From Hymenopus coronatus (taxonomy: Eukaryota > Arthropoda > Insecta > Mantodea > Hymenopodidae), in NCBI GenBank assembly GCA_030762935.1, contig CM060896.1, positions 12,636,001 to 12,700,000 on the forward strand: a stretch of DNA of 64,000 nucleotides, written 5' to 3'. Of this stretch, positions 4,407 to 47,410 are shown piece after piece. A program made the translations under genes and the position numbers. The notes below the pieces were generated by a model, which ran no database searches, had not been told where the DNA came from, and saw only the letters and a program-made list of their open reading frames with translations. Numbering within the stretch: position 1 is the first letter of the stretch; each line of letters starts with the position of its first letter.

Positions 4407-5856
4407 TTACATACATTCTGCTACTGAGGCTTTGTCTTGATGAATTAATTTGTGTCTTTTAAAATTTGAAAAATCACTAAAAGTCTTATCACAAATCTTA
4501 CATTTGTGTGGCTTTATGCCCTCATGAATCAATTTGTGTGTTTTCAAATGTTGCAATAAAGTAAAAGTCTTGTCACAAACCTTACACCTGTGTGGCTTTA
4601 TATCCTCATGAGACAATTTGTGTCTTTTCAAATTGATCAACTGACCAAAAGCCTTGTTACAAATGTTACACTTGTGTTGCTTTATACCATCATGAATCAA
4701 TTTGTGGGTTTTCAAATTTGATGAATCCGTGAAAGTTTTGCCACAAAAGTTACATTTGTGTAGCTCGATGCCCTCATGAATCAATTTGTGTGTTTTCAAA
4801 CGATAAAATCGAGCAAAGGTCTTATCACAAATGTTACACCTATGTAGCTTCCTGCTATGTGGCTTTATGCCCTCATGTATCAATTTGTGTGTTTTCAAAT
4901 TTGACAACTGAGTAAAAGCCTTCTCACACACATTACACTTGTGTGGCTTTAGGCCATCATGAATCAATTTGTGTCTTTTTAAATGCTGCAAAAGTGAAAA
5001 AGTTTTTCCACAGATGCTACATTTATGTGGCTTTATGCCCTCATGAATCATCAGTTTATGTGTTTTCAAACTTGACACTGAAGCAAAAGCCTTGTTACAA
5101 ATGTTACACTTGTATGGCTTTATGCCCTCATGAATCAATGTGTGTTTTTTCAAATTTGACAACTGAGTAAAACTTTTTTCACAAATATTACACTTGTACG
5201 GCTTCTTACCCTCATGAATAAATTTATGAATCTTAAAATTTTTCAAAGATGTAAAAGCCTTGTTGCAAATGTTACACTTATGTGGTTTCTTGCCCTCATG
5301 ATTCAATTTGTGAGTTTTAAAATTTGGTACATTTGTGAAAGCCTTGTTACAAATGTTACACTTATGTGGTTTGTTGCCATCATGCCTCAATTTGTGTCTT
5401 TTCAGAGATGACGAATGCTTAAAATCCTTCTCACAAACATTGCATTTGTTTGCTTTCTTACTCTCATGAACCAATCTGTGGCTTTTTAAATGGTATGAGT
5501 GTTTAAAACTCTTCTCACAAATGCCACATTTGAATGCCTTTGGGTACTCATCACATGTCAAGATTGACTTGCAGCTCTCCATATTCATAACTTGCGTATT
5601 TGTGTTGCTTGGCTGAAGCAAATTATTTTGTTTCAAACTGAAAGACATACCAATAATTTCTTTAGCATCAGGTGTTTCTGAGTAAATTCTTGTTTCTATT
5701 GGGGATATATCTGTAACATCACTCTCTTCTCTTTTGAACTTTCTGGCATCTTCACATTCAGGACTGTAATTTCTCATATTCAAGCTCATGTCATTATCAA
5801 AGTCTCCATTAGATAACAAATGTGATGTACAACTGGTATCACCGTCTTTGTATAAA
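4407..5856 (-). CDS. Gene 1, exon 3: 13-finger C2H2 zinc-finger array
   Basis: Terminal coding exon of a minus-strand zinc-finger gene, probably a sequence-specific nuclear DNA-binding protein. Seen: an acceptor (ttcttaaatttcag) just upstream of 5856, then an acidic/serine-rich stretch of about 110 residues, then 13 fingers of the form C-x2-C-x12-H-x3-H, ending VAECM and TAA at 4409-4407. Finger 6 has an extra residue between its histidines (HKLMIH). The linker between fingers 8 and 9 is about six residues longer than the others. Linkers are HEGIKPH / HDGLKPH rather than the canonical TGEKP. Fingers 5 and 8 (TQLSNLK) and fingers 7 and 12 (LLQHLK) share recognition-helix cores, which suggests internal duplication. 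The phase matches exon 2: its last two bases (AG) plus the first T here make a Ser codon, so the joined CDS is 1836 nt (611 aa). The sequence atgtaagt overlapping the stop resembles a donor, so a further exon is possible. A minus-strand AATAAA lies at 3898-3893. The DNA target is unknown. Confidence 0.9.
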
Positions 5857-6299
5857 CTGAAATTTAAGAATAATATTATCAGGAATTGCTATATCAGATA
5901 ATAGCAAATGATTATTTTACATATATTCATCAATAGAAATGTAACTACATGAAAAAACATAGTTCTGTGAATATGGATGTGCTCCTATTATATATTCAAT
6001 TGCAAGTAAAAAATATTTCACTAATTTTAAACATTGTATTAATTTAACTGAACGCTGAATTTGTTTCAAACCATTATCTTGTCTGAAAACTAAAGCTAGT
6101 TAGTACCAACCAATTTTAGTAATGTGAGCCAGTTCTGATTCTCATTTTTTTTTTTTTTTTGTAAAATGTTCACTTTCTCACACATATCAGCTAGCTAGTG
6201 AATGTGGGACAATCTTATTTCATTTTTATGCACCTTTTTTTCATATATAAGGAAGTTATGGGTAAACCAATTTAAATATTCTTTCTTCACTCATACAAA

Positions 6300-6410
6300 G
6301 AGAGTCCTAAAATCAGTGTTACACTCCTTATGTTCACATACTTCCATATTCAAAACTAACAGAGAATATGACATTATGACTGGAGGTAGTCACTGATTTA
6401 ACTTGATGAA
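6300..6410 (-). repeat. Single unit of the ~100-bp intronic satellite
   Basis: Contains the diagnostic string gttacactccttatgttcac, followed by aactaacagagaatatgaca and gtagtcactgatttaacttga. It is the same unit as at 13.8-14.2 kb and the reverse complement of those at 47.5-48.5 kb. It lies ~450 bp upstream of the gene 1 finger exon. Confidence 0.65.
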
Positions 6411-7764
6411 ATAACTCCAAGAACACTGCTAATTCATATTCAATTCTAAAACCTACTTTATGACACTAGGTTTTGCAACTAATTTCGTGAAATAAATAAT
6501 TTTTATGGCACTAGTTCCACAAGATGTGGTTTTTACATGGCAATACTTGTGAATAGTATAGTTTCATAGCTTTTTAACATATTTCTGCAGCAGTAGTGTC
6601 TAAAAATGGATTATCAAGATATACCAGCAGTTAAATTTGTGGCAGAGGTGTCATTTACTGGCTTTAAAAAATGAGAGACATGAATATGGACTGGACCTTG
6701 GATTCAGATATGGTAACTTTTAGGATGCTTGAAAATTTTCATAGAGGATCCAACAAACTATCATAGACTAGATTAGAAAACATCATGTAGTTTTGTTTAG
6801 GCCTAAATGCCACTGAACATAGAACTTGTCAAGGATATTCATCTAAGAATGACTTCCCAGTAGTTTAGCTTTTTGCATTGGAAAGTAACATGGAAACAAA
6901 GAGACAACATACTGTAATGCCTGAAGCATCTTCATCATCATCAGAGTTGAAATTACAAATCTTGCGAGGTATTTTGCAGTGGTGACTCATATTCATTGCT
7001 ACAGTTTCTATACTATGTTTTCATGAGGTATTGTTTGTGTTACACCTAAAGTACATTGGAGGAATATATCAAGGTAACCAACTATATTACTACTAAAATG
7101 TTGTTAATGCACTTATTTATCAGATTTATTCTGCATTATCTTCAAGAATTTTTAGTCACAATTTCTGAAGGAATAATTATATAATTTTAAGATTGAATAA
7201 CATTTCCTATTAAGGATTTTTTCAGCTCTGGCAAATATTCTGCCCTTTTGGCAGAAATCAGCGTTCCTTAGTCCAAAAACATTTTCTTCTGGAAGCTTTA
7301 TGCATCTGTGCATTGATACATTTGCTACACATATTTTATTGTCTTCTGTTCTTGATGATGGAGACCTGAGAACTTGGACTCTTATCTTTAAGAGGCTTTA
7401 AATGGTTCTCTTGTTTCATTTCTTTTTTGAATTTCTTATTTGCATCTGACATGTTATAAATGAATTGAAAATGTTTCATTTATGACAATGTTCCTAGGTC
7501 ATAATTACTGAACCTCTTCAATGAGAGAACAAGATATCTACTCAAAAATTCCAAGTGACCTATTATCTCCTCAAAGTCCTCCATTTCTAATAAGCTTAAA
7601 CAATAAGAAAAATACTAATATCATCCACAATGTTTCAGGTACCACAAAGGGAAGAGGAACAGAAGCAAATATTCATGTTTTGATGAAATAGATGGAAAAC
7701 ATGTGATGAAATATCTGCCCAAAGGGGGGAAGAATTTTATAATGATAAATGTACATTTAGTGTT

Positions 7765-8030
7765 GCTGATAGCTTCATATACCCAAGGTCATGGGCTCAA
7801 ACTCGGCAGAGGACAATTCATTTTTTTGGGTGTAAAAATCCTTAGTATGGCCTCCCTCAAAAATGAAGCGAACCTGTTGGTCCCATAATGTAGGTATAAG
7901 GCACATAAAAAAACACTCAAGCCGAAAGAGAAGCCTCTGAGCAAAATTAAGCAATCTTTCCCGCCCAGTATAGAATGGGATGCTGAGAACCACAACAGTT
8001 AAAGAGCATCCATAAATAAAACTCCACTTC
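7765..8030 (+). mobile_element. SINE family B copy (tRNA-derived)
   Basis: 5'-truncated copy of a tRNA-derived SINE; the B-box-like atgggctcaaactcg is present and the A-box degraded. Family hallmarks follow: gtgtaaaaatccttagta, ttggtcccat, ctcaagcc, gcctctgagcaaa, tagaatgggatgctgagaac and the 3' end agagcatccataaata. The best-preserved copy is at 35752. Confidence 0.8.
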
Positions 8031-8660
8031 ACATTTAAAAATGCTATATAGTCTTTTCCTGAAAATCCTGCTTTGATTGGAGATGATGCATTTTTGCTTA
8101 CTCTGTATTTAATGACACCATTTTCTAAGCATGGTGCCCTGAGTCATAAAGAAAAGATTTACAGCTATAGGTTATCACGAGCAAGGTGCATGTTGAAAAT
8201 ATTTTCAGAATTTTGGTATCAAAATAATAATTTTGAATATTTTAGAGAATGATAGCACTTCTACCAGACAGAACTGACAAAAGTGATCAAAGCTGCAGGT
8301 GCATTCATAATTGGCCAAGGACATCCATAAAATATTTAGTCTTCATTAACAGGTACAGCAAAATTTGAAACATATGAATACATGCTAGGTTCCTAGAATA
8401 ATGTGGACTTGAAGTTCACTTAATGATACAGCATTGCCCCCACCCCCTAGAAAGCCATAATTAATCATTTACGGTTAGCTAGACAGAAAAGGGAATATCT
8501 TGCATAATATTTGACTGGAGAAGGTTCTGTTCCATGGAGGTTTGAAAGTCTAGTTTTATAATTTATGTGTATTCCTTTTTTCTCTTTGTTTTATTATGCA
8601 CACAATTCTTATTGTGCTCAAAGCTGCACAGGTACTGATTTTGTTGAATTGATATTTAAA

Positions 8661-8850
8661 TTTTTTTTGGTAGTGTTTAATGCCCACTTTTACTACTTGT
8701 TGCACTGCAGGCAATGACACTGGTGATACATGGAATGAAGATGGAGCACCGGTGGAATGTGATGGAGGGGAAAACTGCGCCCCTGCGCCACTTGGTCCAC
8801 CACTAATCTCTCATGTGGTCGCTTGGGATCGAACCTGGGCCATCTAGTGA
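8661..8850 (-). mobile_element. SINE family A copy (tRNA-derived), 5'-truncated
   Basis: Minus-strand copy of the commoner SINE family. Its A-rich tail appears as tttttttt at 8661, followed by the reverse complement of the 3' body (tagtgtttaatgcccac, cactgcaggcaatgacac, ggaatgaagatggagcacc) and the B box (ggatcgaacctgg). The A box is missing. Confidence 0.8.
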
Positions 8851-9681
8851 TATTTCAATGTTGATGTACTGGTGTAGAATTGTCAAATTTCCTTTTATGC
8901 AATTGATATTCATGTCAACTTTAACCCTCCTAGTGCCATATGTCGATGGTCCTTGCTAGTAATTTAAATATGGCAATAGGGTAAAAAACAATGGGCTTCT
9001 ACATCTTGAAATACTAGTCATTAAAAAAATGTATAATGTAATGTTAGAGATACAATGATCACTTAAAAATGAATTTTGCCACATTCTCTTCTGTTCAGTA
9101 ATCTATTGACTAAATGAATTATGGGGTAGCAAATTAATATCACACATATTTAATCACAACAGAGAATAATAGCTTTTACATTGTAATCTGAGATGAAGTA
9201 TCATACACTACTGCAAAATATAACTGGTACCAATGATTTTAGTATGTTTTGCATCTGGAATATAAGAGCTTCAGTTAATTGTCATGGTTTTTCTACACTA
9301 GTTTCAACAATACACCATGGAGTAGCAACTCTGAATTTAAAGAAGTACACAAAAGCTGATTGTAATTAAGTACTTGGAACCATCTGAAAATTAGAAATGA
9401 ATCACTAATTAAAAAATAAATTTCATTATCAATTAAACACATCAAGCCCTCCAAGTTTCTCTTCATTTAGAGCAGTTATGCAAACTAATGTACTTACAGT
9501 GTAATCCCTCTTCACATTTTATACATACTGTACACCATTTTTGTTATGGTGCATAACACACTGTACACTGGAATTCCCACTTCTTTGGCAATAATTTCAC
9601 ATCATATATGATAAAGAAGAATTATTAATTGTATCTTCAGCCATCCAACGTCTCTTCAGAAACTACCAAGAGCTTACATAT

Positions 9682-9978
9682 TCAATTATTGAGGAATTTA
9701 ACTGAAATTGGCTCATTTTCTTCCGAGTCATACTTGCAATTTAATACATATACACTGAACATTGACATACCCCCCTTTTGCATTTGGTGGCCACAGAGGT
9801 GTATCATGTACACAATCATCACTGTTTCTGTCATACTATTTGCAACAATCTCATACTCATAATATGTCGAAATTTCTTCATCCCACTCTGGGACAAAAAC
9901 ATTCCTGGAAGAACCTATGATGTTCACTTTTACACTGAAAATGGGACTGTATTGATCAAGGCTAAACAAAATTGGCAA
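9682..9978 (-). other. Unassigned 98-codon open frame
   Basis: Begins MPILFSLDQYSPIFSVKVN, contains SSRNVFVPEWDEEIST and ends VKFLNN. It is longer and less biased in composition than most spurious frames in this intron, and the Asp/Glu/Trp patch looks protein-like. I recognise no domain. It lies in gene 1 intron 2 on the gene's own strand, so it could be a decayed transposon piece, a skipped exon or chance. No convincing splice sites were found. Confidence 0.25.
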
Positions 9979-10333
9979 GCACTGGAAATACAGATCTTAA
10001 AATAACAAAAGACACCTCTGACAGCCCTAGAAATATACCATTAGAAAGGTTTCCTCTTTCCAGTAGTAAAAAGCACTTCCCTATAAGGTGTTTCAAAAGT
10101 AGGTATAAGGTCTCTCAAATGCTGTGTTGATAACATTGACATGACAGTCTTCACATGGTGTACAGTGAATTATATTGACGGGTGTCATTTTAACGTTGAA
10201 ACTATTTAAAGATTTCAGTAGTTAAGAGGTTTTATGCATGTGATTTTTTTCAATAAACTGTACTGTAATTAACATCTTTGGTTATTTGTTTTTACTATTC
10301 TGTATACAGGATGTCATACATTACAATCAGATT

Positions 10334-10550
10334 GTTTTTTTTTTTTTCTTCTTCTTCTGATAGTGTTCACTTTTACTGCTATGGCTCTGCAAAGTCAGTG
10401 ATGGTACAGTGGAATACGATGGCAGGGGAAACCAGAGAAAATCTGCCCCTGTGCTGCTTTTTCCAACACAAATCCAATATGTAGTCACCTGGGATCAAGC
10501 CTGAGCTCTTTGTTGAGAGACCAGTGGTCTAACCACTGGCCCAGTGCTGC
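10334..10550 (-). mobile_element. SINE family A copy, near full length
   Basis: T-rich run at 10334 (the reverse of its tail), then the family A body (ggcaggggaaaccagagaaa, ctgcccctgtgctgc) and both tRNA-like promoter boxes: a B box (gggatcaagcctg) and an A-box region (agtggtctaaccactgg). It ends cagtgctgc. Confidence 0.8.
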
Positions 10551-11404
10551 TATACACATATATTATATGTATACAATCATTAGAATATTTGTTGAATATT
10601 ACCAAATTTAACTCAAAAGTTTATATACAAATTTTAAACTATTTACTTAACTTCTAGTATATTATAGTCCTACATGCACATGTAGTATCTTCTTAGAACA
10701 TTAACAATATATAAAGAATATATTTTGATCCCATACAAAAGAAAAAGAAAAAAGAAAAGAAAAAGGGGAATGTTTTTCTTGCTTGTGATTAAAATAGATG
10801 ATTGCAAAAATTTCATTTTAAAGATTTAGTACACTTGAGATTTTAAATTGTATATTAAGCTTTTTATTTTCCACTTAATTGAAAACTGGAATTTTCATTT
10901 TTTATGAATACTTTGTTTTAATTAAGAATATTTATGGTTCTTACACAACAAATTATGCCAAACTAAGTATTCTTACCAGATTTCTTACTATATTAAGCAC
11001 AAACTGCATATAAAGTAATGTTTAAGTCTGAAGTTAGAAAGAGTAGTACATTTCCTTTTGGATTTTCTGTGAAAGATGTCATGCTATCTACCGCCATCAG
11101 TTTCAACTCAAAGATGACGAACAGGAGCAGAGCAGTTTAGAGAGGAAAAGGACCATCCTGAAGAAATGTTTCAATTTTGATAATTTTGACACCTTGGAGA
11201 ATTCCAGTCTACAATTATCTACCTTGCATTACGCTGAAAAAAATTATAATATTTGAGCTACTATTTTCTAATAACCAAAAGTTGCACGTCTATTTTTGCT
11301 TAATGTTATGTTTCAACGATGTTGAATTCCCATTAACAATGCAGATGATAAGAAAATAAGCACTTTATTCATATTTTAAAACAAATACCATCATTTAAGG
11401 AATT

Positions 11405-11590
11405 TTCTTTTTTTTTGGATAATGTCCACTATTACTATGCACCAGTGGAATGTGATGGCAGGGGAAACCGAAGAACCCCACGAAAACTGGCCCCTGCGCC
11501 ACTTTGTCCACCACAAATCTCACATGTCGCTTGGGATTGAACCAGGGCCATCTAGGTGAGAGGGAAATGGTCTAACCACTCTGTCGCATT
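11405..11590 (-). mobile_element. SINE family A copy with internal deletion
   Basis: Same family: ataatgtccactattact, then a deletion across the central body, then cagtggaatgtgatggcagg, ccactttgtccaccacaaat, B box ggattgaaccaggg and A-box region gtctaaccactc. Confidence 0.8.
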
Positions 11591-13273
11591 AAGGAAATGC
11601 TTTTTCAACATTATTCATGGAGATGAAATGTACAGTGCTATTATTTTGAATTGATTTTGCACAGAGAAATGCTGTAAATGTCAATCATTGTTGATAATTT
11701 GAATATAATATGATTGCTTACAGATTGCCTTCCACAAGAGAGAAACATTTGCCTTCCAAATAATCAGTGTTGCAGTATTTGTTTTTATTTTGATGTATCC
11801 GCAAATAAAAATAAAGCTAAAACTGCTTTGTCTGAGACCAACTACTACAGGAGAGAGAAAAAACTCTTCACGTTTAGACTATAGAGCAGAACTTATTGTT
11901 CTAATTGTATCTACAATTCATAAACTCTGTGTTGTCAGTGGTGTTACATTCTTGCATTCTTGTGCCCATTTTTATCAATAATGGATAGGCTCCTTGCAAT
12001 ATCTTTTAAATGGCTCTTGCATGTATTTTTGTCAGCAAATTGAAAAAGATCAGAAATTGTGTAGAATAAGTTTTCATGATCTGTGTTTAACTGGAAATTT
12101 TAAACTGATAATTTTATTAATTTTATATCTCAAACCTATTAGTGAAAATAATTTAAGTAGCCAAGTATTTTTAAAAACTGAACAGAAATGTGAATGATTG
12201 ATTGCTTCTGCACAATTAAGTAATCTACACCAAAAAAAATGTCAGCAAATGAAAAAACATTCCCTTCATTAAGTCCACCACACGTGTTATTTGTAATATT
12301 AATAGTTAGTCTCTGAGTAAAAGTTAACAAACTTCCAAACCATAATGTGAGTTGCTGGAATTTAAACTTATACTAAAAATACAAAGTGATGAATAAAATT
12401 GGCTTTTAAATATTAGGAATTATTAATTAACGGAAAGTCCTATGGCTTTGTATAAAATTGCTTAAGTTATATATGATCACATGTAGAGCTGAACATGATT
12501 TGAGCAAGTTAATAAAACAAACTGTTAATGAAATGGATATAACAACATTTCTATAAGCATCAGAGTGGTGAAATAAAAGGGGGGGGAACACATTAATACT
12601 GCACAGTACATAATGGCATCATTTACGACTGGATAAAAGAGTGAAGCACGCAAAGCAGTATATAACTAGCATTTATAACCAATTTGAAGTTGCATTATTA
12701 AATTATGAAGTAGTCTTACCAAATTAGAATGGATCTTCCTTTCAGGATGGAATCTACAGGCTTCAACCAGGAATATTCAGCTTGTACACATCATCAATGA
12801 CATTTCCAGAATCTTTACTCTTTTCTATCTTCCAAGTTCTATTTTTAGGTACCTCTTATTGAATGAATTCATGTTTTAAGTTCTTCAGTCATCATTTCAT
12901 CTATACTAATTTTTTGTTTTTGTTTTTTTTTAATTGATGCAAGAGCATCAGCATGCTTCACTTTATTTTTAAAATGTATATCAAAAGTCTTACAAGCACC
13001 TCTAAGCTGCATATAAATTATTATTTAATTATGATTATTAATTTCCCCACTCCTTTTGTAAACTACAACCAGCCTCAAAATCAAATACCAGAAATAATTT
13101 TGTTTCCACAAAAGTTGGAAATAACCAAAACAGGTTAGTGTCGCAACAAACTTTTGGCATTAACACTGACATAAGAGATAGTTGCAAAAGCTATTGCCAA
13201 CATGTAAACTACCTTAACAGGTAATACTACAACAAATCTAGGAATATTAATTTATAGATTTGATCAAACTAAA

Positions 13274-13815: not shown

Positions 13816-13819
13816 GGCT

Positions 13820-14245
13820 TGCACTATGTTGCATTCCTTATGTTCACAGAGCAGTTCCATTTCTAACAGTAGCAGAGAATACTACATTATGTATGGAGAT
13901 AGCCACTTTTAGAGCTTAATCAAGTTACTATGTTACACTCCAATTGTCAAAAGAACAATCCTACATATAACACTAATAGGAATGTGACATTAAGCCTGGA
14001 AATAGTCACTTATTGAATTTGATTGGATGACTATGTTGCATTCCTTATATTTAAAATGTAGTTGTATATGCAACTCTAACAGATATGACGAAATGTCTGG
14101 GGATAGTCAATTATAGAACTTGACCAAACTACTACATTACACTGCTTCAGTTCAAAGAACAGTTCCATATCTAGCTCTACAGGAATCTGAAAACATGTGT
14201 GAGGACAGACACTAATACAACTTGATCAAGGAACGCCATCTGCTC
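13820..14245 (-). repeat. Array of ~100-bp satellite, about 4 units
   Basis: Repeating motif gttgcattccttatgttcac ... agttccatttctaacag ... gatagtcactt... with period about 103 bp, at roughly 13825, 13930, 14036 and 14130. Units are ~70% alike by eye. It begins about 90 bp past gene 1 exon 2 in transcript order, the same place the gene 2 array starts after its exon 2. Confidence 0.7.
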
Positions 14246-14336
14246 ATTAAGTATAGAAAGTAGCTCAATATATAACATTAAGTAGAAATGCATAGAAAAT
14301 GTAAAAATAATTGAAAGCATAAACCATGGGACTTAC

Positions 14337-15082: not shown

Positions 15083-15285
15083 ATCAGTCAATTTACTTCC
15101 CTCATTCATATCCATTCAGACTCAGATTTGTGAAAAATTTCCCAACACAGTAAAAATTTTGAAGTTGATTCAGCATTAGTGATACAGATTTAAACTTTAT
15201 AATTCAATCACTATGAATCTTCCAAAAATTAAATGACAGATAAAGGGTAGCCTTTTTAAACAAAATTCTAATTAAAATAAAAGTA

Positions 15286-16317: not shown

Positions 16318-16318
16318 C

Positions 16319-17128: not shown

Positions 17129-17522
17129 CTTAATGTCATCATAAATACACAGAGTTTCTGTTGAAGTAGTTTCCACCCAGCACTTTCCTTCTGAAATTTC
17201 TATTTTGGGCTCGAATGCACTATGTTTGCTGACTTTATTATATCCCATTACAGGATCTTCTGAAATAAATTCTCGCTGATTCTCCGAAAAAAAATTGGAA
17301 ATAACAGTCTCTTCTTCAACTTCTGTTTTGGTATCTTCATCGCAGTCCCTGCCACTTGTAACAGTTTCACTCTTAACTTTCTCTACAAAGTCTATGGAAA
17401 AAAGTTCTCTATCATTCTGTAAACAGAAGTCCAAGGGACAAGATTCTTCCTTGATTTCTTCTTTGATATCCATTTTACTGTAATTGCTGTATTTGAACGG
17501 TTCTTTTCTTCAACCAGCAAGT
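17129..17522 (-). CDS. Gene 1, exon 1: N-terminal acidic/SUMO-motif region
   Basis: First coding exon of the minus-strand zinc-finger gene. The acceptor ttttccacag ends at 17523, followed by 49 nt of 5' leader, ATG at 17473-17471, and 345 nt (115 codons) to a strong donor (AAG/gtaagt). The start is chosen because MDIK is conserved in the paralogue at 45461. The protein is acidic and lysine/glutamate-rich, opening MDIKEEIKEES. It has three Psi-K-x-E sequences (IKEE twice near the N-terminus, VKSE near residue 33) that fit the SUMO-acceptor consensus; modification itself is inference. No ZAD, BTB or KRAB domain is recognisable. The upstream acceptor implies at least one more 5' exon, probably non-coding, beyond 17.5 kb that I cannot locate. 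Confidence 0.85.
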
Positions 17523-18964
17523 CTGTGGAAAATGAAACATATATTAGTAACATATATTTTTGGTTTCTTTTTAGATAGTTAAAACTTGTTAAATTTTAAC
17601 CAATGGGACAGATTTCTTTTAAGAAGAAAAAATAATAAGAAATTGATGTAACATGTTAAGTAGAATGTTTCAAGCTCTATAGGCTGTTACCGTGCATTAC
17701 TATCCTAAAACATACTTTAATTCCCATTACTCCAAACACTAGTTTTGTAATCTTGGACAGAGCCGAGCTTTCCATGTTGCAAAAAACATTCAAATCAAAA
17801 TAGTGAGCATTACATTAGCAATTTCAATCTGGCAGTTGTTAAGCTCATTTTGTGGAGTTAAAATATTTTCAGCCAGAATCACAAAGAGAAATTTTCCTTC
17901 ATCATCTAAGCATTCAATATTATTAGTCTGATAAGACCAGTCTCTTAAGACTGGTATTGTTGAATTAACAAAGTAGTTACATGCAACATTTTAAGACAAA
18001 CAATGAAATTTACCAGAAATATAATCTCAATACACAGAACTCAGTTCTACTTCTTTCCCAGCAGTGATCTTTCAAATATCCTTGTTTTGTTTTCTATTTT
18101 CTTTCTTCATATGGTAGGCAAGAATCCAAAAGCAGAAGAGGAGTTAAGGGAAATGGTAGGGGAATAAACAGTGTCACATAGGAGTTGAAATTAGTAGGTC
18201 AATGGATTAATAAGGAAAAGGGGAAGGCAGGCAGGTGTGAGATGATATGTGTGAACAGCAGGAGAAGCGTGATAAAATTAAAAGACAAAAAGGACATCGG
18301 ATAATAGTAATAGAGAAGGCGACAGGTGGACAACAGGTAGAACATGGGAAGAACAGAAGGGAGAATAGACAGTGAAAAGGATATAATCACTGAGGTTAAG
18401 GGAGGTGTGAGAGGTGGGAACAATAAAGAGCAATATATGAACAGTTAAGAAAGAAAAAAAAAATCAAAGTACAGTAAGAAAAGGGAGATGTAGTAAATAG
18501 GCAAAAAAGTACTGGGAAACATCCACAGATCAATGGGAGATAAGGGGTAGAGTCACGATGCACAATATAACAAGGGTGTCCAGTTGTAAGGGACCCCTAC
18601 TGAAAAAAATGCTTTGACTGAGGTGAAATTTGCAGAATGTGTAAAATTGTAATACATTAGAAGTAGAAATAAATAAATACATTCATTGTCTTTCTTAAAT
18701 AATTTCAGAGTAATTGGTACAAAATTAACATTACATCATTCTCCGGTGTTTCACATATAACAGATGTTAATGTGGGTAGCTATAATTTGAGTTTTCTTCA
18801 ACAGATTTCAGCTTTTATCTGGATCTTTGCCCATATCAGTATTTGGGTCTCCTGTAACACTGTTTTACATAATATGGCATTAACCAATTATCCAATTCTT
18901 TCTACATACTAACTTTCATAGAGAAAGCTGAAATAAATTTCTATTTCCATGATACCCCCTCACC

Positions 18965-36876: not shown

Positions 36877-38334
36877 TGAGGGTTGGGGCAAAAGTCATGG
36901 CAACTAGTTTTTTTCTTGTAGATATGTGGATGGATCACAAATGTATGTATGTCGTGTGGAAGTTCTGCAGGCATAGTGTGTATTCAGAACAACAGATGGC
37001 TCTGTGATAGCTGGTAGTGGTGCAATGAGGGCTGTGAAATCAGTCAGTTGGTGAGTGTCGTGCGAGAAGGAAGTAACTTATGTTGAGCAGCATGCTTATA
37101 TGAAAATAGCCATTCTCCGAGGGAGAAATGCGATGGAATGTCAGAGTATATTAGTAGAAGCCCTTAGGAATAATGCTCTACCATACCACGGTGGGCAGGA
37201 AAGTTTCAGCAAGGATGTGTGTCAACCAGTGATGAGCAACGTTTAGGATGACTTGTCAGTGAGCAGACTGACGTGGCACGTGCTATCATCGAGCAGCTCC
37301 TGGATGAAGACAGACGATGGACGCTACTGGAGATAGAAGACAAATGGCATCAAGAAATACACCGTCCACAGGATATTGTGTAATGAGCTGCAACTACGCA
37401 AAATTGCATCATGGTGGGTACCGCATGCACTGACGGAAGTTCAAAGGTGGGTGCACTATGCAATCTGCTCCGACCACCTTGCAAGCTGGCAACAGGATGT
37501 CGATCAATTCTTGTCACAAATAGTTGCCATCAATGAATTTTGGGCCAGGGCATACAAACCAGAACTGAAACGTCAGTCCGCGGAGTGGCGACATGCTGGA
37601 TCACCAAGGAAGCAGAAGTTCCATCAGAATCCTTCTCCAGTCAAATTGATGGTGATCGTCGCATATGATGTCAGGGCTGTCATTGTTTGCCACTTGGTTC
37701 CACACGGCAGAATAGTGACTGCACAGTACTACAGGGACTTCCTGGTGCAACAGGTACAACGTGGCATTCAGGAGAAACATCCAGATCTTGTGGACAGTGC
37801 AATAATCCTGCGCGACATTGCAAAACCACATAAAGCAGAGGATGTAGGGCAGCTACTGCTACATTGGGGGTGGGAAGAATTGGAGCACCCACCATACTCT
37901 CACAACATTTTGCCCTGTGACTTTGATCTCATTCGAAAGATTAAGGAATCACTACGTGGTAGGCGGTTTGCAACACGAGAGGACATTGCTAATGCTGTGC
38001 GTGGACAGCTGACCTGATTCACAAATGATGCTTCAAATGCAACGTCAGATGGTATTCACATTGTTGGCAGCATGTGGTGTCAGTAGCAGGTGACTATTTT
38101 GAGGGTATTTAGGCCTAGGTATGTCATGTCAACTGCAAGTGTACTGTGTTGTCATTCTTTTGCATTGTGAAAGTCATATTGCCCTGTATACTACCATGAT
38201 AAATTAGTGTGTTACGATATTCAGTGCTATTCATTGTTCACACATGTCCTTTCGTCTGTATATGTCATATTTTCCAACCAGACTGGTATCTTCAAGGAAA
38301 TAAATAGTTGCCATGTCATTTGCCCCAACCCTCT
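36877..38334 (+). mobile_element. Mariner element with TIRs
   Basis: About 1.46 kb bounded by ~27-bp inverted repeats: gagggttggggcaaaagtca at 36878 and tcatttgccccaaccctc at 38317. A single degenerate transposase gene lies between. It is inserted near the 3' end of the LINE, whose UTR continues on both sides. Confidence 0.88.
37050..38076 (+). pseudogene. Mariner (Mos1-like) transposase, inactivated
   Basis: N-terminal part VTYVEQHAYMKIAILRGRNA near 37076, broken by frameshifts, then an open frame from 37376: LRKIASWWVPHALTEVQRW, PELKRQSAEWRHAGSPR, VIVAYDVRAVIVCHLVPHGR, AQYYRDFLVQQV, WEELEHPPYS, PCDFDLIRKIKESLRGR. This is a typical mariner DD34D layout. The first catalytic motif, normally xDE-W, reads VAINEFWARAYKP (Asp to Asn). 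The second, normally HDNARPH, reads RDIAKPH, keeping Asp. The third Asp (PCDFDL) is kept. The N-terminal frameshifts and the motif 1 change make it inactive. The stop after RGQLT is followed by readable C-terminal sequence. Confidence 0.88.
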
Positions 38335-38639: not shown

Positions 38640-38800
38640 TGCATGATAAAATTCACAAAATCAGTATGAGTTAATAAAACTTGGAGTTTCACGAGGAACT
38701 TTTCTTGGAGCACACTTGCTTCTATTACACATCAATGATTTAACTAAAACCCTCGGATTTTAAAATAATCTCATATGTGGATAATACATAATGTCTGCAA
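38640..38800 (+). pseudogene. LINE reverse-transcriptase fragment (jockey/CR1-like)
   Basis: Translation includes KLGVSRGTFLGAHLLLLHIN then DLTKTLGF, a decayed form of the GVPQGS-LGPLLF-LYINDL block of the RT palm domain. The remainder is not recognisable. Confidence 0.65.
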
Positions 38801-38975
38801 ATAAAGATATACTCGGTCTTGGGATTCTAGTAAATGTAAAACCAGAGGATAGCTATGATTACACAATAAAAATAATTTAAAAGTAAATTTACAAAAGCAA
38901 ATATAATCATGTTCCAGCAAAAAAATAACAGGTACAATAATGAAAGTAAATGTAAAATGTAAACAAAAAAATATA

Positions 38976-39171
38976 TTCAAAATCTTCTCGGGCTTCTAGC
39001 CAGGTAATAACTTGGCTTGACACCAACGTTTCGAAGAAGTGCATCTTCCTCGTCTTCAGGGTGAAGATGCACTTCTTCGAAACGTTGGTGTCAAGCCAAG
39101 TTATTACCTGGCTAGAAGCCCGAGAAGATTTTGAATTAACACGTCGCCAGGAAAGCTATAGTTCTTATTTT
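38976..39171 (+). mobile_element. Foldback (Penelope-like?) element, medium-arm copy
   Basis: Same arm terminus and tail as 34938. Arms pair for about 80 bp with a small asymmetric loop; the left arm extends to ctcgtcttcagggtg while the right arm starts at gaagatgcacttcttcg. Flanked by the 11-bp direct repeat aaaaaaatata (38965-38975 and 39172-39182). Confidence 0.8.
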
Positions 39172-39182
39172 AAAAAAATATA

Positions 39183-40275
39183 TATATATATGACTGGATG
39201 ACAGGCAGACAGTTGGTCAGTCAGTCAGGGTATTTGTGTGTTCATGTGTCTGGAGAATATAAAATCCCTGGTAGAAATTCTTGGTGAGAGTATAATATTC
39301 AAATATCATTGAACCATCATGTAAAATATTAGTACTCATTTTAGAACAATTTAAAATAACCTAAACTTAAATTACATAATCATGGTATATTATGGATTAA
39401 TACACCTTCAATATGAAATGTTGCCCTATGACAAATATAAATAGGATACTAATATGTGTTTCTAATGCAAATAGAGAATCATGTAGAAGCTGCAGTATTA
39501 ATTGCTGTATCATTATATGTATATAAAGTAATTATGTTTAATAAATAACACAAACTTCAGATTGTACTTAGAACACAAAACAATTACTTTAGAGATAGTG
39601 CTCACAAGAAAGTCAAAAACGATCCTCTCACAGTAGGTAAAATATTGTAAAAAAGTTGTCAAGAGATATAAAGATTCCAAGTTGTATAATATACCAACAC
39701 TCTAAATATGGGCCTACCTGTATAGGGTATGTGGATAGTAATTATTGTATATTTAAAATTGAAAATGCTTGAAACTTGTAAAAATTTAAAGCCAAAGAAT
39801 CATCACCACTATCATTATCATTCCATTCTAGGCACTTAATCATCAGCCAATTGCCATTATGTCAGGAAAAGTATCTAAATTATATGATATATGCTACAAT
39901 TTTATGTACTATGCCATCTAATTTATTGAAGAACTTCACCTCATGCTGAACAATCAAGTGACCACATTCTTCTGAGGCAATAAAATTACAAATACAATGA
40001 TTTGTAGACTTGGTGTATAACATGATAGGGCTTAAATTTGCAACATGTCAACTTTTTACTATAATTATTATGTATTATATAATTAAAAAAGTTTATGAAT
40101 AAAATGCAATGACAAATATGCTTTTTTATTAAGTCACATTTAAATAAATTTCAGAGATAAAAGAACCCCTGCCGCAATGTGTTCATGTGTTTATTTGTTG
40201 GCTCATTCCATTTTGGAAACATAACTAGTTGCCTCAGAGGATGTCATTCTGATTTTAATTCCCATCTAATTTTAA
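39183..40275. other. No gene recognised
   Basis: AT-rich DNA between the foldback element and the piggyBac element; no supported feature. Confidence 0.45.
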
Positions 40276-40879
40276 ACTGTCATTTGTCACTATATGAGCA
40301 TTTTGCTCACACTTTCATTTTTTTTTTTTTTTTTTTACAATAATAACTGCTCAATCTAGCTGACTTTTAAACTTGCCGGAAGCAGTTGTTTAAGTTAGTT
40401 AACAACAATCATACTGACAATAGTTTGTGCAATCTGTGTCCAGTTGAGGTACCAGCTGTAAGTGGTTTCCTCATCAAGCGACAAACCATGCTATTGAATT
40501 GTGTAGTCTGCAATCATCCTGGCTTGAAGCTAAAATGTAGAAACCCTATTGTGTATTCATTAAAAATATCCTTTGATTGAATTATTTTCGTTGATATTCA
40601 GTTAGGTTTTTACAATAAGTCAATCAGAAGAAATCCTTCTAACAACAGGATGGAAGGGACACTCTAGGTATATTTATTTTCACTGTTTGTTGTAATAAAT
40701 GTGTATTTAATTACCATATATTTACTGTTTCTTTTGACACAGATTCGAAGATTCGAACACATATGTTGAGAATCAAATTTAGGCCGATGCCATAATCAAT
40801 AGTAGAACATTTTCTAACATGATTTCTGACTGCCTACTTATTTTATTAATTATTATTATTATTTTAGGATTCCCTGCAT

Positions 40880-41862
40880 GGTTGAGTGAAAGTAGTACTT
40901 CTAGACAGTGGTGATTTGAACCAGGAAGAAAGATTAAATGAGTGGGAATCTGATGCACATTCTGAACATAGTGATGCAGAACAATCTTCAGGAGATTCTC
41001 AGAAACTGAAATTGATTTTCAGCCAATGAAAAGATAAAATAACAGTATAGTCCATGCATCCACCATGCTCCCATATTTGAAGACCTACACATAATATAGT
41101 TATAACATATCCAGGCTGTCAAGGAGAGGCTAAAACTGCAACTTCAATGGCAAATGCATGGTATTTATTCTTTCTTGAAGAGACAATTTTAATACTGTAC
41201 TAACATATATCTCTAAAAAATGCGAACTAAATATGCACAACCGAGGGACTGTCCTGATACAACTTTACATGAAATAACTTCTGTAATTGGTCTTATATAC
41301 TCGGCAGGCTTGAAATAGGCTGCTCATATCAGCATTCAAGAGCTTTGGGCTGATGATTGCACATCTCCTGAATGTTTTCATGTCGTGATGTCAAGTTGTA
41401 GGTTCTAAATTCTTCTTGAGGCTCTATGATTTGATGACGTCAACAATAGAGCTGAGAAAGAATATCAATAATCTGGCCCCCATTAGAAGAATATTTGAGG
41501 AATCTGTTGTCAGATGCATAAATAATTATGAATTAAAAGAAAACATAACACTTGATTAAATGCTACCTGCTTTCCAAGGAAGAGTAAATTCCATCAAAAC
41601 TATCAAAATATGGAATGAAAATTTATGCATTGGTAGATTCTGAAACATATTATGTTTCAAATCTAGAAATTTATCCAGGGACGCAACCTGAAGGTCCATA
41701 CCAGACTGTTAATAAAGCATCTAATGTTGTGAATAGATTAGCAGCACCCATTTTCAATAGCAAAAGAAACATTACCATGGATAATTATTTTACATCTGTT
41801 CTGCTAGCCCTGGAGTTGCTGCAGAAGAAAACTTCTGTGGTTGTAACACTAAACGAGGGAGG

Positions 41863-41893
<31 letters not shown>

Positions 41894-42565
41894 ACCCATT
41901 TTTGTAAATACTAAGGAGAGGCCAGCTTGTAGTAAGTAGTATGTTGGGTTTCCTCAAAACGGGGCTTCTAGTGTCATATGTGTCTAAAAGATACAAAACT
42001 GTGCTGCTTTTTTCAGCTGTACATTCTGCTGATGAAATTAATGAGGAAACCAGTGACAAAAACAAACCACTCATAGTTACATTCTACAACAAAATAAAGG
42101 TGTAGTTGATATTGCCAACAAACTCATATATTAATATTCAGTATCTAGAATTACCTACAGGTCGCTAATGGCAGCAGTTTCTTGGCCGTTGAACATTGGT
42201 GAAATAAATTCACAGATCATTTATTCTACTAATAAAGAGAATAAATTAGATCATTGAATATTTTTGAAACGTTTTGCTCTAGAACTTATAAAACCCCATG
42301 TGAGAGTATGTCTATTTTAAATTTGTCAGACAGCTTGCGAGACTCAGTGAAGAAAATTGTTGGTAATGAAGAGGAGAATGCAGTAATTGCAATACTATGA
42401 CAACTCCTGGTGTATGTTCTCTGTGCCCTCTATAAGACAACAGAAAATCCAAAAGTCTGCTGTGAATGTAACATTTGTGCAACGAACATGCAAGAATTAC
42501 CTGCAATAAGTGCTTTGAACTGCCAGTGTTGCCACCATAATTTGATTTTAAGAGTAGATTGAATT
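40880..42565 (+). pseudogene. piggyBac-like transposase, inactivated
   Basis: Acidic N-terminus (SGDLNQEERLNEWESDAHSE), a decayed middle, then a good stretch from 41615 (MKIYALVDSETYYVSNLEIY, then NITMDNYFTSVLLALELLQK). A ~28-nt poly(A) expansion at 41863-41890 breaks the frame. It resumes with KRYKTVLLFSAVHSADEINE, YSVSRITYRSLMAAVSW, and ends in a Cys-rich tail (VCCECNICATNMQELP...LNCQCC) matching the C-terminal zinc-binding domain. DNYFTS is the second catalytic Asp motif of DDE_Tnp_1_7. Confidence 0.8.
41863..41890 (+). repeat. Poly(A) tract inside the transposase frame
   Basis: Homopolymer expansion after the codons for LNEGG; it accounts for the artefactual poly-lysine open frame here. 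Confidence 0.9.
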
Positions 42566-42838
42566 TGTGCTAGCTTTAGGTATTACATGTTATACATATT
42601 TAACAAACTAAACCCATAATTTTTTTCAATGAAGACATTGAATTTGAATTTCTTTCAAATATGTACACATACTACATTAAGTTAACCATAAATTAATATT
42701 CTTTACTTTTGTTTTAAGACAGATGTTTTGTGATCCCTTCAAAAAAAATGTAATTTGTAGTAGATTTAGAAAATTATAATTTACATTTTATTAGCATTTT
42801 GCTACCATGTCATAACAACGGTAGCGACAAATGACAGG

Positions 42839-44062
42839 CTAAAAATTCAAGGACAGATTTACTGTTTGATCATTGGTTAACTAAAAGAAATAAGAGAAAA
42901 CTGCCTCATGTTACAAACATTTTTTTATTTGAATTGCTGATTGGCTCTCCTCTGAAAGTATCTATGCAACAAGAATGGATTAGTGCTTTAGGTAAAAATG
43001 GATCACAGGTGACAGAAGTATTAGCAAGGGCATAGTTTAGCTAAAGGTTAGAATCCACTGAAGAACATTTAATGCACTGTCCATAGACACATTATTGTCC
43101 ATTCTTATATGTAACATCTGTTATCTGTGAAGGACACATTATTGTAACATCTGTTTTGATAGACTGATTGATGTGATGCTAAATGTGCTTCAGTCACTCT
43201 GAAATATTGAAAAAAACAAATCAAAACAGGCATTAATATTTTAAAGATCACTGCTGGGAAAGAAGTGTTGATTAGATCCATGTGTATGTAGATTCCAATT
43301 GTTGGGTTCATGTTTCTGGTCAATATTATATAATCTTAAACATTTTGTATAACACCATATTTTGTTGATTGTGATAGTTTGGGAATAAATTTATGGCTCA
43401 TTCCATATAAAATCAAAAGTGAAAACCATAATTTATTTTAAATCCAACTTTTGTATGCTTATAGGGACTGAAAATAATAAGGTTTCAGCAAAATATGAAT
43501 AATTTATCATTCATAATTTCCTATTGTCAATATACAACTTACTGTAATTTTTTACTTTTGAGTTAAATAATTGCCTAAGTTGTCCTGATAAATGAGTGTA
43601 AATTTATTGATCTCCATCATTTCACATTTTGCCTCTTGTAATTGACTATAAAGTATTATTTAATATTTGGGGACAGATACCATAAGAATATTTCTTTAAC
43701 TTCCCACATTTTATTACATTTATAGGAAGATATGTAAGCTTTCAGTCCCTGGTACCACCAATAGAATGCAAGAAAATAACTCCTGAAGTTTTTGGCATAA
43801 GGAGATTTTCTCATTCAATATAATATTCCAAACAGAGCAGTTTGTCTAGGTGGTTATACTAACTATCAGTATGAATGGGTTAGGTAATATACAGGTAATA
43901 CAGTGAATAATACAATAAAATTAAGTAATTATACTAAATTAGGGACAGATAAAAACAATTGACATATAGCGTAATTTAGGCAACTGTATAGTACATATAT
44001 GTAATATTAATTATTCATTCATTTATAGACTTCTCAACATAGGAAATAAACTTTACAGAAAT
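42839..44062. other. No gene recognised
   Basis: AT-rich. A short direct repeat (acattattgt..., gtaacatctgtt) occurs at 43089-43155. No other feature supported. Confidence 0.45.
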
Positions 44063-44162
44063 AAAATAAGAACTAAAACTTTCCTGGCGACGTGTTAATT
44101 CAAAATCTTCTCGGGCTTCTAGCCAGGTAAAAACCTGGCTAGAAGCCCGAGAAGATTTTGAA
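44063..44162 (-). mobile_element. Foldback (Penelope-like?) element, short-arm copy
   Basis: Third copy, opposite orientation: tail first (aaaataagaactaaaacttt, cctggcgacgtgttaa), then a near-perfect hairpin of ~31-bp arms (ttcaaaatcttctcgggctt...) with only a few loop nucleotides. Flanked by the 11-bp direct repeat tttacagaaat (44052-44062 and 44163-44173). Confidence 0.8.
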
Positions 44163-44173
44163 TTTACAGAAAT

Positions 44174-45021
44174 AGTCACTGTTTTAGTCCTCTACAGAGC
44201 TCACATAAGAAGGTGAAACACAAAGCAACTCCATGGATACTTGGTTGCAATTCCATTCAGAGTATTCAAATCGTTAGAATTTGCACAAAATGCAGACTAA
44301 AATTACAAAAGATTTTCCAAATTAAAAATAATAATTAAGTCTCTGCAATTAATTTTTCATAAATGTTTGTGTTCAGTTAGAATTAACATTGTGACACAGC
44401 CGTAGAGAGGAAGTTGGTTTTATTTATAATCAAAGTTGAGATGCTCTGAAGCAGTAGGCAAATTTTAGTTTCTTAAAATAAATATCTGGTTAAGAGTAAT
44501 AATATGACTACACCAGGATGTCCTACAGACATTAGATAATTATAGGTATACATATATACGCAAATATCAAATTTTGTGTGAATGACGTCTATTTTAATAT
44601 TTACTATAATGAAAACTATTTTTTGTGCTGGAATTGTTGGTATATGTGGCTTAACACAGACACCTAATATTGCTGATAAGAGGTAATTTTTATTTATGGC
44701 CATTTTCAAAGGGACTGACCAATATGTCATTAAGTTTTACCATTGACTATTGATATTGAATGTTTAGATGACGAAAGAAAATTCTTCTCTTTGAGTCTGT
44801 TTTGAAATATTTTACAAAACAAGCTTTACCAAGAACTGATTATTGTTGAAGTGAAGTTCTTTAAGTAATTCTGTGCTCATTATTTTTCTTGGAATATTTT
44901 TTACAATGTATGCATGTCCAAGATTATAAAACTACTTTTGGAATAATGTGATTTGGGCAATATTTTACTATAATGATATTAATGATCATAATAAGAAAAT
45001 AATTGGTTCCAGATCAACCAA
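44174..45021. other. No gene recognised
   Basis: AT-rich upstream flank of gene 2 exon 1; an upstream 5' exon must exist somewhere before 45413, given the acceptor there. Confidence 0.4.
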
Positions 45022-45260
45022 ATGCTGCATTGTGCCTGAGTGGTTAGACCACTCAACTCTCACATAGGAGGCTTGGGTTTGATCCCAAGCGACTGTATGT
45101 AGGATTTGTGGTGGACAAAGTGGCGCAGGGGCAAATTTTCTCTGGGTTCTCCAGTTTCCTCTGCCATTGCATTCCATCTTCATTCCATGATTCATCAGTG
45201 TCATCTCTGTAGTGCCATTTGTAGCAAAAGCAGGTGTTAAACAGTATAAAAAAGAAAAAG
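45022..45260 (+). mobile_element. SINE family A copy, full length
   Basis: Head gctgcattgtgcctgagtgg, ttagaccactcaactctc, B box gggtttgatccc, then gatttgtggtggacaaagtg, gcgcaggggcaaattttctc, tcatcagtgtcatctctg and the A-rich tail acagtataaaaaagaaaaag. It lies 150 bp upstream of the gene 2 exon 1 acceptor. Confidence 0.88.
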
Positions 45261-45413
45261 ATTAAAAATGTAACTTAACATATTACTCTAAAATACTATA
45301 TAATTGTTTAAACTGTCTGTCCTATTGGTTGAAATTTGATGTAGTTTCAACTATATAGAAGCCAACTCAATGGAAATATTTCATGTACTATTAATATCTT
45401 TCTTTTTCCACAG

Positions 45414-45805
45414 TCTTACTACTGATGTTTAATAACATAACTATTAAAAGACAGCAAAAAATGGATATCAAAGTAGAAATCAAAGAGGAGAGTTGTTTTT
45501 TGGACCTATGTTCACAGAGTGAGAGAGAGCTTAATTCTAATGACCTTCTAAAGAAAGTTAAGCATGAAACTGTTACAAATGGCAATAACTGTGGTATAGA
45601 TATCAACAAAGAAATTAAAAAAGATGCTGTGGATTCTAAATTGTATTCAATGGATCAGAGAGAATTCTTTTCAGAGCACCCTGTAATAAAATTTAATATA
45701 AGCAGCAAAGGCAGTGAAATTGAAACCAAAATAGAAATTAAAGACGATCAATGGTGGCTGAAAGAAACTTCAATAGAAAGTCCTCGTGTTTCTTGTGATA
45801 TTCAG
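45414..45805 (+). CDS. Gene 2, exon 1: paralogous N-terminal region of zinc-finger gene
   Basis: First coding exon of a plus-strand paralogue of gene 1. Acceptor ctttttccacag ends at 45413; about 47 nt of leader; MDIK ATG at 45461; donor CAG/gtaagt at 45805/45806. The CDS from MDIK is 345 nt, exactly the gene 1 length, and the 115 residues align without gaps with about 57 identities (~50%). Shared blocks include KEES, ETVT, QREF and SE-PV. An in-frame upstream ATG at 45425 could add 12 residues, but the homologue supports 45461. Psi-K-x-E motifs are kept (IKVE, IKEE, VKHE). The finger exon is not in the window; in gene 1 it lies 8.5 kb beyond exon 2, and here it is probably past 64000. Confidence 0.85.
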
Positions 45806-46090
45806 GTAAGTTATGCATGCACTTTTTATTAATTCTAATAGTTTTCTATGTACAGTACTGAATAATTGTTTCTAATAAGATATTGATAATTTATTTTGCA
45901 TAGAAAATAAATAAACATGAACAATTTCACAAATATTGTATTTTAAAATGTTAATTAAAAGGCTAAATGTTATTACTGTTTGGTTTTTCTGTTGTACTTT
46001 TATATAATTTCACACAGGAGGAAAAGATTTGTAATAGTTGTATAATTGAGGATTTTCTGCTAATTAGGCATAGCAGTATAGGAAGAAGAC

Positions 46091-46161
46091 GGTAAAATAG
46101 AGACTTCACATTTGTGGAAATACAGATGTGTTTCCACAAATGTGAAGTCCCTATTTTATCC
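46091..46161. repeat. 30-bp inverted repeat (hairpin)
   Basis: ggtaaaatagagacttcaca plus tttgtggaaa pairs with tttccacaaatgtgaagtcc plus ctattttatcc across a 10-nt loop; two or three mismatches. Its transcript (intron 1 of gene 2) would fold strongly. It may be a tiny MITE or foldback element. Confidence 0.85.
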
Positions 46162-47291
46162 AGAGTGAAAAAAATAGCCACATGAAATCCTATTAGCCTA
46201 GAAAGCATTATGAAAGGAGAAAGAGAGAAATAAGAAGCCAGCAATACAATGAAATGTCTAAAAAGTAAAGGTAAACAATATAACGGTAGGAGCTGTATAT
46301 CATATAAATAAAAAAAAGTGTTCTATGGCTTTTGTAGCTTGATGTTTCTGTTTTTGAAAACATTGCTTGTGTTAAGGAAAGAACTTCCAAGCTAGTTTTA
46401 AATGAAAAATTCTGCAAATTTTCTCTTCAAGAAAGCTTAATATAGCAATATTGCTTAAGTGCTAAACATCCAGTTCTTTTTTCTGAGTGACGTATTCCAA
46501 GACTGTAAATATCCTTGTTATTTTTGTGCAATGTTTTCAGCAAACTGCATTTTTATTTATCAAACTAAGAACGGAATCTATACAATTCTCATAAATTAAA
46601 ATTTAAACAAGTTTTAAAAAATGAGCCATACTTAACACTTTTAAGATTCATTATGTTACCTAGAACACTTTTTTTTCATAGAATGTTTCCTGCATCTCTA
46701 GTTAGAAACATACATCCTGTGAAATATGTTCTAGATAACTATCTAAAGTAATGAAGCTTAAAGGTGTTAAGTTTGACTGATTTTTAAACATTTTAAACTA
46801 AATTATATTAGTTATTTCATTTTTAAACTAGTGAACTAGCATTTAATCTACCTACAAAATTAGTGCTTGTTAACCGATCCTGAGTCACAACAGTTTGTGA
46901 AACATGTCCTAATAATATAAGTTGATGGAGATTGAATGATTATATCTCATTTTAAACTCTAAATAACCCTTTATATATTTCTTTTACTTGTTGGACTACA
47001 CAGTTAATGCTAAATTTAAATATTGCAGAATAATGACATAATTGCATTATCAGAACAACGTAAGTGTTGAGTTAAAAAAAAAAAAACATTGAATTTTCAT
47101 GCCCAGGTACAGATAATAAAATGAAGTGATACACTTTTTATTTTTAACTATTTATGAAACTGGGCTTTTGGAACTCCACAGCTTTATACTTGTTACAACA
47201 TTTTTTCTCTGCTTTCATGGATTTGATACTTTATATGAAGTAATCTCTTATTTACAGGTTACTCAGGTTGACCCATATTTGCTTTTGCCTC

Positions 47292-47308
47292 TCCCCCCCC
47301 CCCCCCCC
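47292..47308 (+). repeat. Poly(C) tract
   Basis: About 17 C residues after ctct, 60 bp before gene 2 exon 2. It could affect splicing or assembly. Confidence 0.9.
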
Positions 47309-47369
47309 AAGTCATTAATGTGAAGGAACAAACAGATCATGTGATTTACATGAAATTATTCTGTTACAG

Positions 47370-47410
47370 CAGGAAACAATTGAAGGCTTTTATTCTATAA
47401 AATCACCAAG
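47370..47410 (+). CDS. Gene 2, exon 2: 41-nt microexon
   Basis: Acceptor attctgttacag ends at 47369 and donor CCAAG/gtaagt follows 47410. The exon is 41 nt, phase 0 in and phase 2 out, encoding QETIEGFYSIKSP plus two bases. It matches gene 1 exon 2 in length, phase, acceptor sequence and C-terminal residues, which is the main reason to call it. Intron 1 of gene 2 is about 1.56 kb (2.75 kb in gene 1). Confidence 0.8.

Follow-up and report, generated by a model that had tools for sequence, protein, structure and literature searches.

We analysed a 64,000-nt stretch of the genome of the mantis Hymenopus coronatus (assembly GCA_030762935.1, contig CM060896.1, forward strand), hereafter the window, which corresponds to C17:12636001-12700000 in genome numbering. 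The window carries two divergently oriented genes, gene 1 on the minus strand and gene 2 on the plus strand, which look like real three-exon zinc-finger genes and appear to be two intact members of a large, apparently lineage-specific C2H2 family. The first coding exon of this family, referred to here as the tail exon, contains SUMO-consensus sites that are both in excess and conserved, with caveats arising from a reversed-motif control and from a comparison restricted to lysines. We tentatively propose that the family encodes DNA-binding transcription factors whose tail may act as a SUMO acceptor that recruits repressors, taking the place of a KRAB or ZAD domain, a reading that we regard as possible rather than probable.

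Two divergent zinc-finger genes with one exon plan

The exons and splice signals of the two genes are as follows (window numbering).

17474..17533, minus strand: gene 1 upstream acceptor (ATTTTCCACAG) with the 49 untranslated nt of exon 1
17473-17129, minus strand: gene 1 exon 1, 345 nt, 115 codons from ATG (MDIK...), donor GTAAGT
14377-14337, minus strand: gene 1 exon 2, 41 nt, acceptor TTCTGTTACAG, donor GTAAGT
5856-4407, minus strand: gene 1 exon 3, linker of ~105 aa and 13 C2H2 fingers, TAA at 4409-4407
45403..45460, plus strand: gene 2 upstream acceptor (TTTTTCCACAG) with the 47 untranslated nt of exon 1
45461-45805, plus strand: gene 2 exon 1, 345 nt, 115 codons, donor GTAAGT
47370-47410, plus strand: gene 2 exon 2, 41 nt, acceptor TTCTGTTACAG, donor GTAAGT
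67682-69026 (C17:12703682-12705026), plus strand: gene 2 exon 3, outside the window, 11 fingers

The identical architecture that an earlier note on this DNA had described (345-nt exon, 41-nt exon, phases, GTAAGT donors and matching acceptors) was borne out at both loci. No finger exon for gene 2 was found inside the 64-kb window; the same note had suggested looking past position 64000, and there the exon was present, in frame, 3.7 kb beyond the window end, with its 11 fingers spanning C17:12704013-12704918. Its acceptor, AAATTTCAG, is that of the gene 1 finger exon, in identical phase, and the acceptor preceding exon 1 ends in TTTTCCACAG in both genes. The three exons of gene 1 join in frame to encode 611 aa followed by a TAA stop, and the exons of gene 2 join in frame to encode 576 aa. 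In both genes the fingers (13 and 11, respectively) are in frame with the tail, placing the genes among C2H2 proteins (Pfam zf-C2H2, 2.7e-59). Splice signals, phase and conservation suggest that both genes are spliced as listed; of the three gene 1 junctions previously counted, two are apparently coding and the third lies upstream, in untranslated sequence.

The reported gap-free alignment of exon 1 between the two genes, with 57/115 identical residues, was reproduced; it comprised 248/345 identical nucleotides (tblastn E ~2e-29 in a search within the window), with identities at codon positions 1, 2 and 3 numbering 81, 84 and 83 of 115. Exon 2 was identical at 29/41 nt. No gap occurred in 386 exon columns, compared to 20 gap openings in 703 aligned columns of non-coding flank (Poisson, P 2e-5), and simulated random substitution left a stop-free exon in ~1% of trials. 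Sequence identity in the exons (71.8%) was not significantly greater (P 0.30) than in the aligned flanks (68.7%), whose identity is biased upward because they were picked for alignability. Nonsynonymous and synonymous divergence (dN and dS; NG86) between the genes were 0.33 and 0.48, with a bootstrap ratio of 0.38-1.32. The lack of exon gaps, together with an identity close to that of the flanks, indicates a kept frame with fast-changing residues.

A large family of tail exons in the genome

Searching the H. coronatus genome (3.13 Gb, 384 contigs) with exon 1 of gene 1 returned at least 155 matches in at least 149 distinct places, these counts being lower bounds because 150 of 1028 candidates were scored. 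Places among the matches listed were distributed over C14 (73), C20 (41), C17 (16), C18 (7), C19 (7), C6 (4) and C11 (1). Internal stops occurred in 8/150 listed matches, the remaining 142/150 being stop-free. Copies were read at 69 of the 149 listed places, a non-random selection in which some copies with stops were omitted, and 68 were used for analysis, L027 being dropped because its frame was unrecovered. L082, obtained only in part, was not used either, and L005 and L026 denote a single place. Only two of these 68 contained a stop, the copies having been chosen mostly among open ones.

Of the seven exon-1 loci whose downstream sequence was covered, six had a finger exon after exon 1: genes 1 and 2, gene 3 (the copy listed next on C17), the two on C14 and one of the pair on C20. 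The possibility, raised beforehand, that exon 1 similarity belongs to a transposon rather than to zinc-finger genes was thus not supported. All six finger exons were preceded by a TTTCAG acceptor at the phase that joining to a 41-nt exon demands. This small exon was itself identified in five copies: genes 1-3 and the two C20 loci. It is also present, inverted and with its splice sites, as an additional copy at G000:C17:12743435-12743494 on the minus strand, ~4 kb beyond gene 3's own. Exon 1 was longer in gene 3 and in two fully read C14 copies (157 and 154 aa). Among the 34 copies of the main clade, designated A, the donor GTRAG was kept in 30/34, and a [CT]AG, by a loose criterion, lay 38-56 nt before the ATG in 32 of the 33 copies for which 52 nt or more had been read. 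The median dN/dS across 561 clade-A pairs was 0.58, which is weak purifying selection.

No relatives of the N-terminal region were found among 5.8 billion database proteins at E<=1 (gene 1) or E<=10 (gene 2), in a search that scores only proteins with common five-residue words (202 and 84 candidates, respectively) and can miss distant relatives. The earlier suggestion of a lineage-specific family therefore looks right, and the tail family was not described in the open-licence literature searched. In a Pfam/NCBIfam scan of 11 family members, no match was better than E 0.012 and each weak match was confined to a single member. ZAD (zf-AD, PF07776), KRAB, SCAN and BTB were found in 0/11 members at Pfam E<=1, in agreement with the note's statement that the N-terminal domain is none of ZAD, BTB or KRAB, and no solved structure matched the tail exon at E<=1. 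The tail exon might represent an unnamed effector domain. Elsewhere in the genome, zf-AD gave 42 matches above cut-off, many with internal stops. The genome also contained 88,925 matches to (TTAGG)n repeats versus 23 for the backward control. Both features are arthropod marks and, by themselves, indicate an arthropod genome, probably that of an insect.

SUMO-consensus sites within the repeated units of the tail

The motif [VILMF]KxE/D is the SUMO consensus. In the tail exon these motifs lie within repeated units. Comparison of consensus units gave a score of 75 for unit 1 against unit 2 (shuffled mean 22.7) and 51 for unit 1 against unit 3 (21.3); similarity between units 2 and 3 was not significant (P 0.10). 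Taken singly, 23/33 clade-A copies displayed unit 1-unit 2 similarity at P<0.05.

The motif occurred 3.97 times per copy in clade A versus 0.68 after shuffling (135 in total versus 23.4 expected), and 3.61 versus 0.82 times in a further clade, C (119 versus 27.0). Clade C consists largely of near-identical C14 copies, most of which were read without the first unit. An arginine-swapped control was without excess in either clade (1 versus 3.6 expected in clade A, 5 versus 4.0 in clade C). In the window, gene 1 has three sites (0.74 expected) and gene 2 has five (0.80 expected), three of which, at positions 3, 7 and 33, are common to both. Four consensus sites were intact in 33/34, 30/34, 24/32 and 26/33 clade-A copies, and four in 28/31, 31/33, 18/33 and 24/32 clade-C copies. 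Motif residues were better conserved than other exon residues in both clade A (P 3e-5) and clade C (P 0.0015). The first 128 aa are acidic, with 32 acidic and 15 basic residues in gene 1 and 26 and 18 in gene 2, and stretches such as LDFC, EFCSQ and WWLE recur by eye.

We further compared the regions ahead of the fingers in zinc-finger proteins of other animals. The 120 best finger homologues, chosen by finger similarity, form a small sample; 97 were grouped by organism and 23 were omitted (no organism shown, or protist). One vertebrate with a short pre-finger region was left out of the motif count, and another count took 50 vertebrates. Pre-finger [VILMF]KxE/D motifs numbered 25 versus 3.9 expected in six non-redundant polyneopteran sequences, 16 versus 4.7 in eight other insects and 15 versus 4.5 in nine other invertebrates; in 43 vertebrates the excess was weak (41 versus 28.1). 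The Schistocerca and Periplaneta proteins have finger arrays among the insect ones nearest to that of gene 1, with identities of up to 54%, although vertebrate proteins gave the best E-values, and they share the enrichment of the motif ahead of the fingers. However, their tails have no recognisable sequence homology to the family tail, even by family profiles: the best match among the 120 proteins (E 0.012) lay within the fingers of an unnamed protein, the reversed-sequence control reaching 0.11. The Schistocerca proteins P0100, P0049 and P0067 have KxE-rich pre-finger regions, and P0100 contains, by eye, a block repeated several times.

Several observations weigh against the proposed reading of the family. 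The reversed motif was also in excess in clade A (57 versus 23.3), though not in clade C (31 versus 26.5), and motif lysines, set against other lysines, showed no significantly better conservation (P 0.086 in clade A, 0.078 in clade C). The copies are related, so the per-copy counts are not independent, and the clade-C site intact in 18/33 copies is poorly kept. At the second C20 locus no finger exon was found within ~12 kb downstream, and two exon-2 queries found no 41-nt exon in the C14 stretch. Two of 13 polyneopteran sequences were without the motif. According to an excerpt of a Drosophila study, SUMO motifs are no commoner in repressive fragments than in others (PMC9890238), which speaks against such a mechanism as a general rule.

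Origin of the pair

The introns and 5' flanks of genes 1 and 2 show collinear homology, on the basis of which the pair was at first read as a private inverted duplication, as in the earlier note; this reading was dropped after the genome-wide search and tree building. In exon 1 DNA, gene 1 was 82.0% identical to a copy at C20:28.9 Mb, 77.4% to gene 3 and 71.9% to gene 2, whilst gene 2 was 78.1% identical to a copy at C20:28.69 Mb. In the protein tree of 68 copies, gene 1 belonged to a clade of 20 rows (support 97/94) and gene 2 grouped with a C20 copy (98/87); a DNA tree restricted to the 34 copies of clade A recovered both groupings, at 92/85 and 95/78. Closer kin elsewhere were also apparent in the exon-3 linker, where gene 1 scored 77.8 bits against gene 3, 75.9 against C20 and 35.4 against gene 2, and gene 2 scored 67.8 against C20 and 55.5 against gene 3. 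In addition, gene 3 has the unusual finger spacer of gene 1.

Forcing genes 1 and 2 to be sisters cost 31 (protein) and 24 (DNA) log-likelihood units, with approximately unbiased test values (p-AU) of 0.081 and 0.050, which disfavour a private duplication whilst falling short of formal rejection. Head-to-head orientation and collinear homology are what a single local inverted duplication would produce; the latter is not decisive, because common ancestry of the wider family could yield the same. With closer relatives of both genes elsewhere, sisterhood is disfavoured at a borderline level of the formal test, the private duplication is probably wrong and we consider one local event very improbable. 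What stands of the original claim is that the two genes are divergent paralogues with the same plan. Likewise, both 5' ends do lie inside the 28-kb interval in which the note had placed both promoters, with no pointer to a shared promoter.

Gene orientation and the C14 cluster

Outside C14, family neighbours up to 40 kb apart comprised 8 head-to-head pairs, 14 tandem pairs (10 + 4) and no tail-to-tail pairs, the last being due at least in part to gene length (the genes that could be spanned measure ~7 to 24 kb). The head-to-head excess outside C14 was not significant (P 0.15; minus-minus excess, P 0.03), and family-wide head-to-head enrichment was dropped there. The head-to-head order of genes 1 and 2 is probably one of several cluster orders and not functional in itself.

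The stretch G000:C14:37.4-43.0 Mb contained 64 exon-1 places among the matches listed, including 12 head-to-head pairs 15-18 kb apart. Six of these 12 pairs were read; all six minus members fell in one 7-row clade (88/85) and all six plus members in another (100/98), the plus copies having a common changed donor, GTAATT. In the one plus partner that was read completely, the finger exon is short. The pairs are non-independent copies of one unit, and the stretch looks like one head-to-head unit amplified many times, though it might be an assembly artefact.

Repeats and other window content

Intron 2 of both genes contains a matching repeat array.

13820..14289, minus strand: array of imperfect repeats in intron 2 of gene 1, directly following exon 2, with a counterpart in intron 2 of gene 2
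47476..48519, plus strand: the counterpart array of imperfect repeats, in intron 2 of gene 2

Neither array was listed by Tandem Repeats Finder. The repeat (unit ~110 bp by eye) is dispersed and also occurs at 52594-53008, 56864-57059 and 6287-6459. Another dispersed repeat, at 45024-45256, lies in the 5' flank of gene 2 and has no equivalent at gene 1; its kin are at 8661-8860, 10374-10550, 11439-11588 and 50208-50439, and 'short interspersed element-like' is a candidate label for it. Remains of DDE transposases (Pfam Transposase_1, DDE_Tnp_1_7, DDE_3) were found at 37337-38017, 41588-41914, 53083-53706 and 54987-56082, the part at 55540-56082 being below cut-off. The 28-kb interval between the genes thus holds two transposase remnants and dispersed repeats. 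Scans of the window with Rfam (gathering scores) and for tRNAs were empty. At the left window edge, a decayed zinc-finger array (1-76, minus strand, continuing to C17:12635798; tblastn E 0.001-0.08) has in-frame stops, and both histidines of the edge finger are replaced; it probably represents a dead relative lying downstream of gene 1.

Proposed function and alternatives

With a plan consisting of an untranslated 5' part, the tail exon, the 41-nt exon (in five members) and the finger exon, an expressed family member would choose its DNA targets through its fingers. The acidic tail, probably disordered, would be modified by SUMO at the motif lysines, and the SUMO groups would recruit co-repressors via SUMO-binding motifs, so that the SUMO-bearing tail may do the job that KRAB does in vertebrates. 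A broader version, in which an insect-type lineage built a KRAB-like repressor system from repeated SUMO-acceptor units at no fewer than 149 places, typically zinc-finger genes and including a 5.5-Mb cluster in which a head-to-head gene pair was amplified, is in our view somewhat unlikely.

The tail could instead be an acidic activation domain, whose acidic residues, with aromatic and leucine ones in between, bind Mediator or a similar partner, KxE being a by-product of a composition that is acidic and contains lysine. The acidic surplus in both genes and the recurrent LDFC, EFCSQ and WWLE stretches agree with this; however, composition-preserving shuffles yield only about one sixth of the clade-A motifs and the K-to-R swapped motif is without excess, which leaves an activation domain rather unlikely. 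Similarly improbable is a tail that serves as a disordered spacer under weak constraint and has no effector function, leaving the fingers to act alone. Such a spacer would fit an exon identity not significantly above that of the flanks and a pair bootstrap dN/dS that extends beyond 1, but not the 386 gap-free exon columns, the family-wide median dN/dS of 0.58 or the better conservation of motif residues than of the remaining exon. That exon 1 is transposon-borne, or its copies mostly dead, is scarcely credible: copy number is high, clusters are long, some copies have stops (8/150 listed) or changed donors and a finger array has decayed at the window edge, yet 142/150 listed matches are stop-free, as are all but two of the 68 mostly open copies used, the finger exon follows in 6/7 loci and the donor is kept in 30/34 clade-A copies.

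Relation to known zinc-finger systems

KRAB-ZNF genes of tetrapods have an N-terminal effector exon, a finger array in a single last exon and clustered expansion. In general terms the present family resembles them in its N-terminal exon, single finger exon and clustered expansion, but differs in that a KRAB match was found in 0/11 members. ZAD-ZNF genes, as described in an excerpt of PMC7655104, are likewise zinc-finger genes that abound in insects, turn over fast and have a disordered linker of which little has been characterised; unlike them, the family had a zf-AD match in 0/11 members scanned. The ZF271-like/APEZ families of Oncopeltus and the pea aphid are similar in their large insect-lineage expansions, their clusters with changing gene structure and their many tandem fingers with no Pfam domain besides these, as far as an excerpt of the source goes (PMC6444547). 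According to the same excerpt, they carry no domain other than fingers, and our family has the corresponding features: tandem fingers, a five-residue linker (mostly EGxKP/DGxKP) and no other named domain. In contrast to ZF271-like/APEZ, it possesses a 41-nt exon and a tail exon that is conserved and contains repeated KxE units.

The excerpt further states that insect zinc-finger expansions lack KRAB and a direct KAP-1 orthologue, and urges a search for other partners (PMC6444547). A conserved SUMO-type tail exon in a large family is a concrete candidate for such a partner interface, and if the SUMO-acceptor proposal is true, the expanded zinc-finger families of insects would gain the partner interface that they have been missing.

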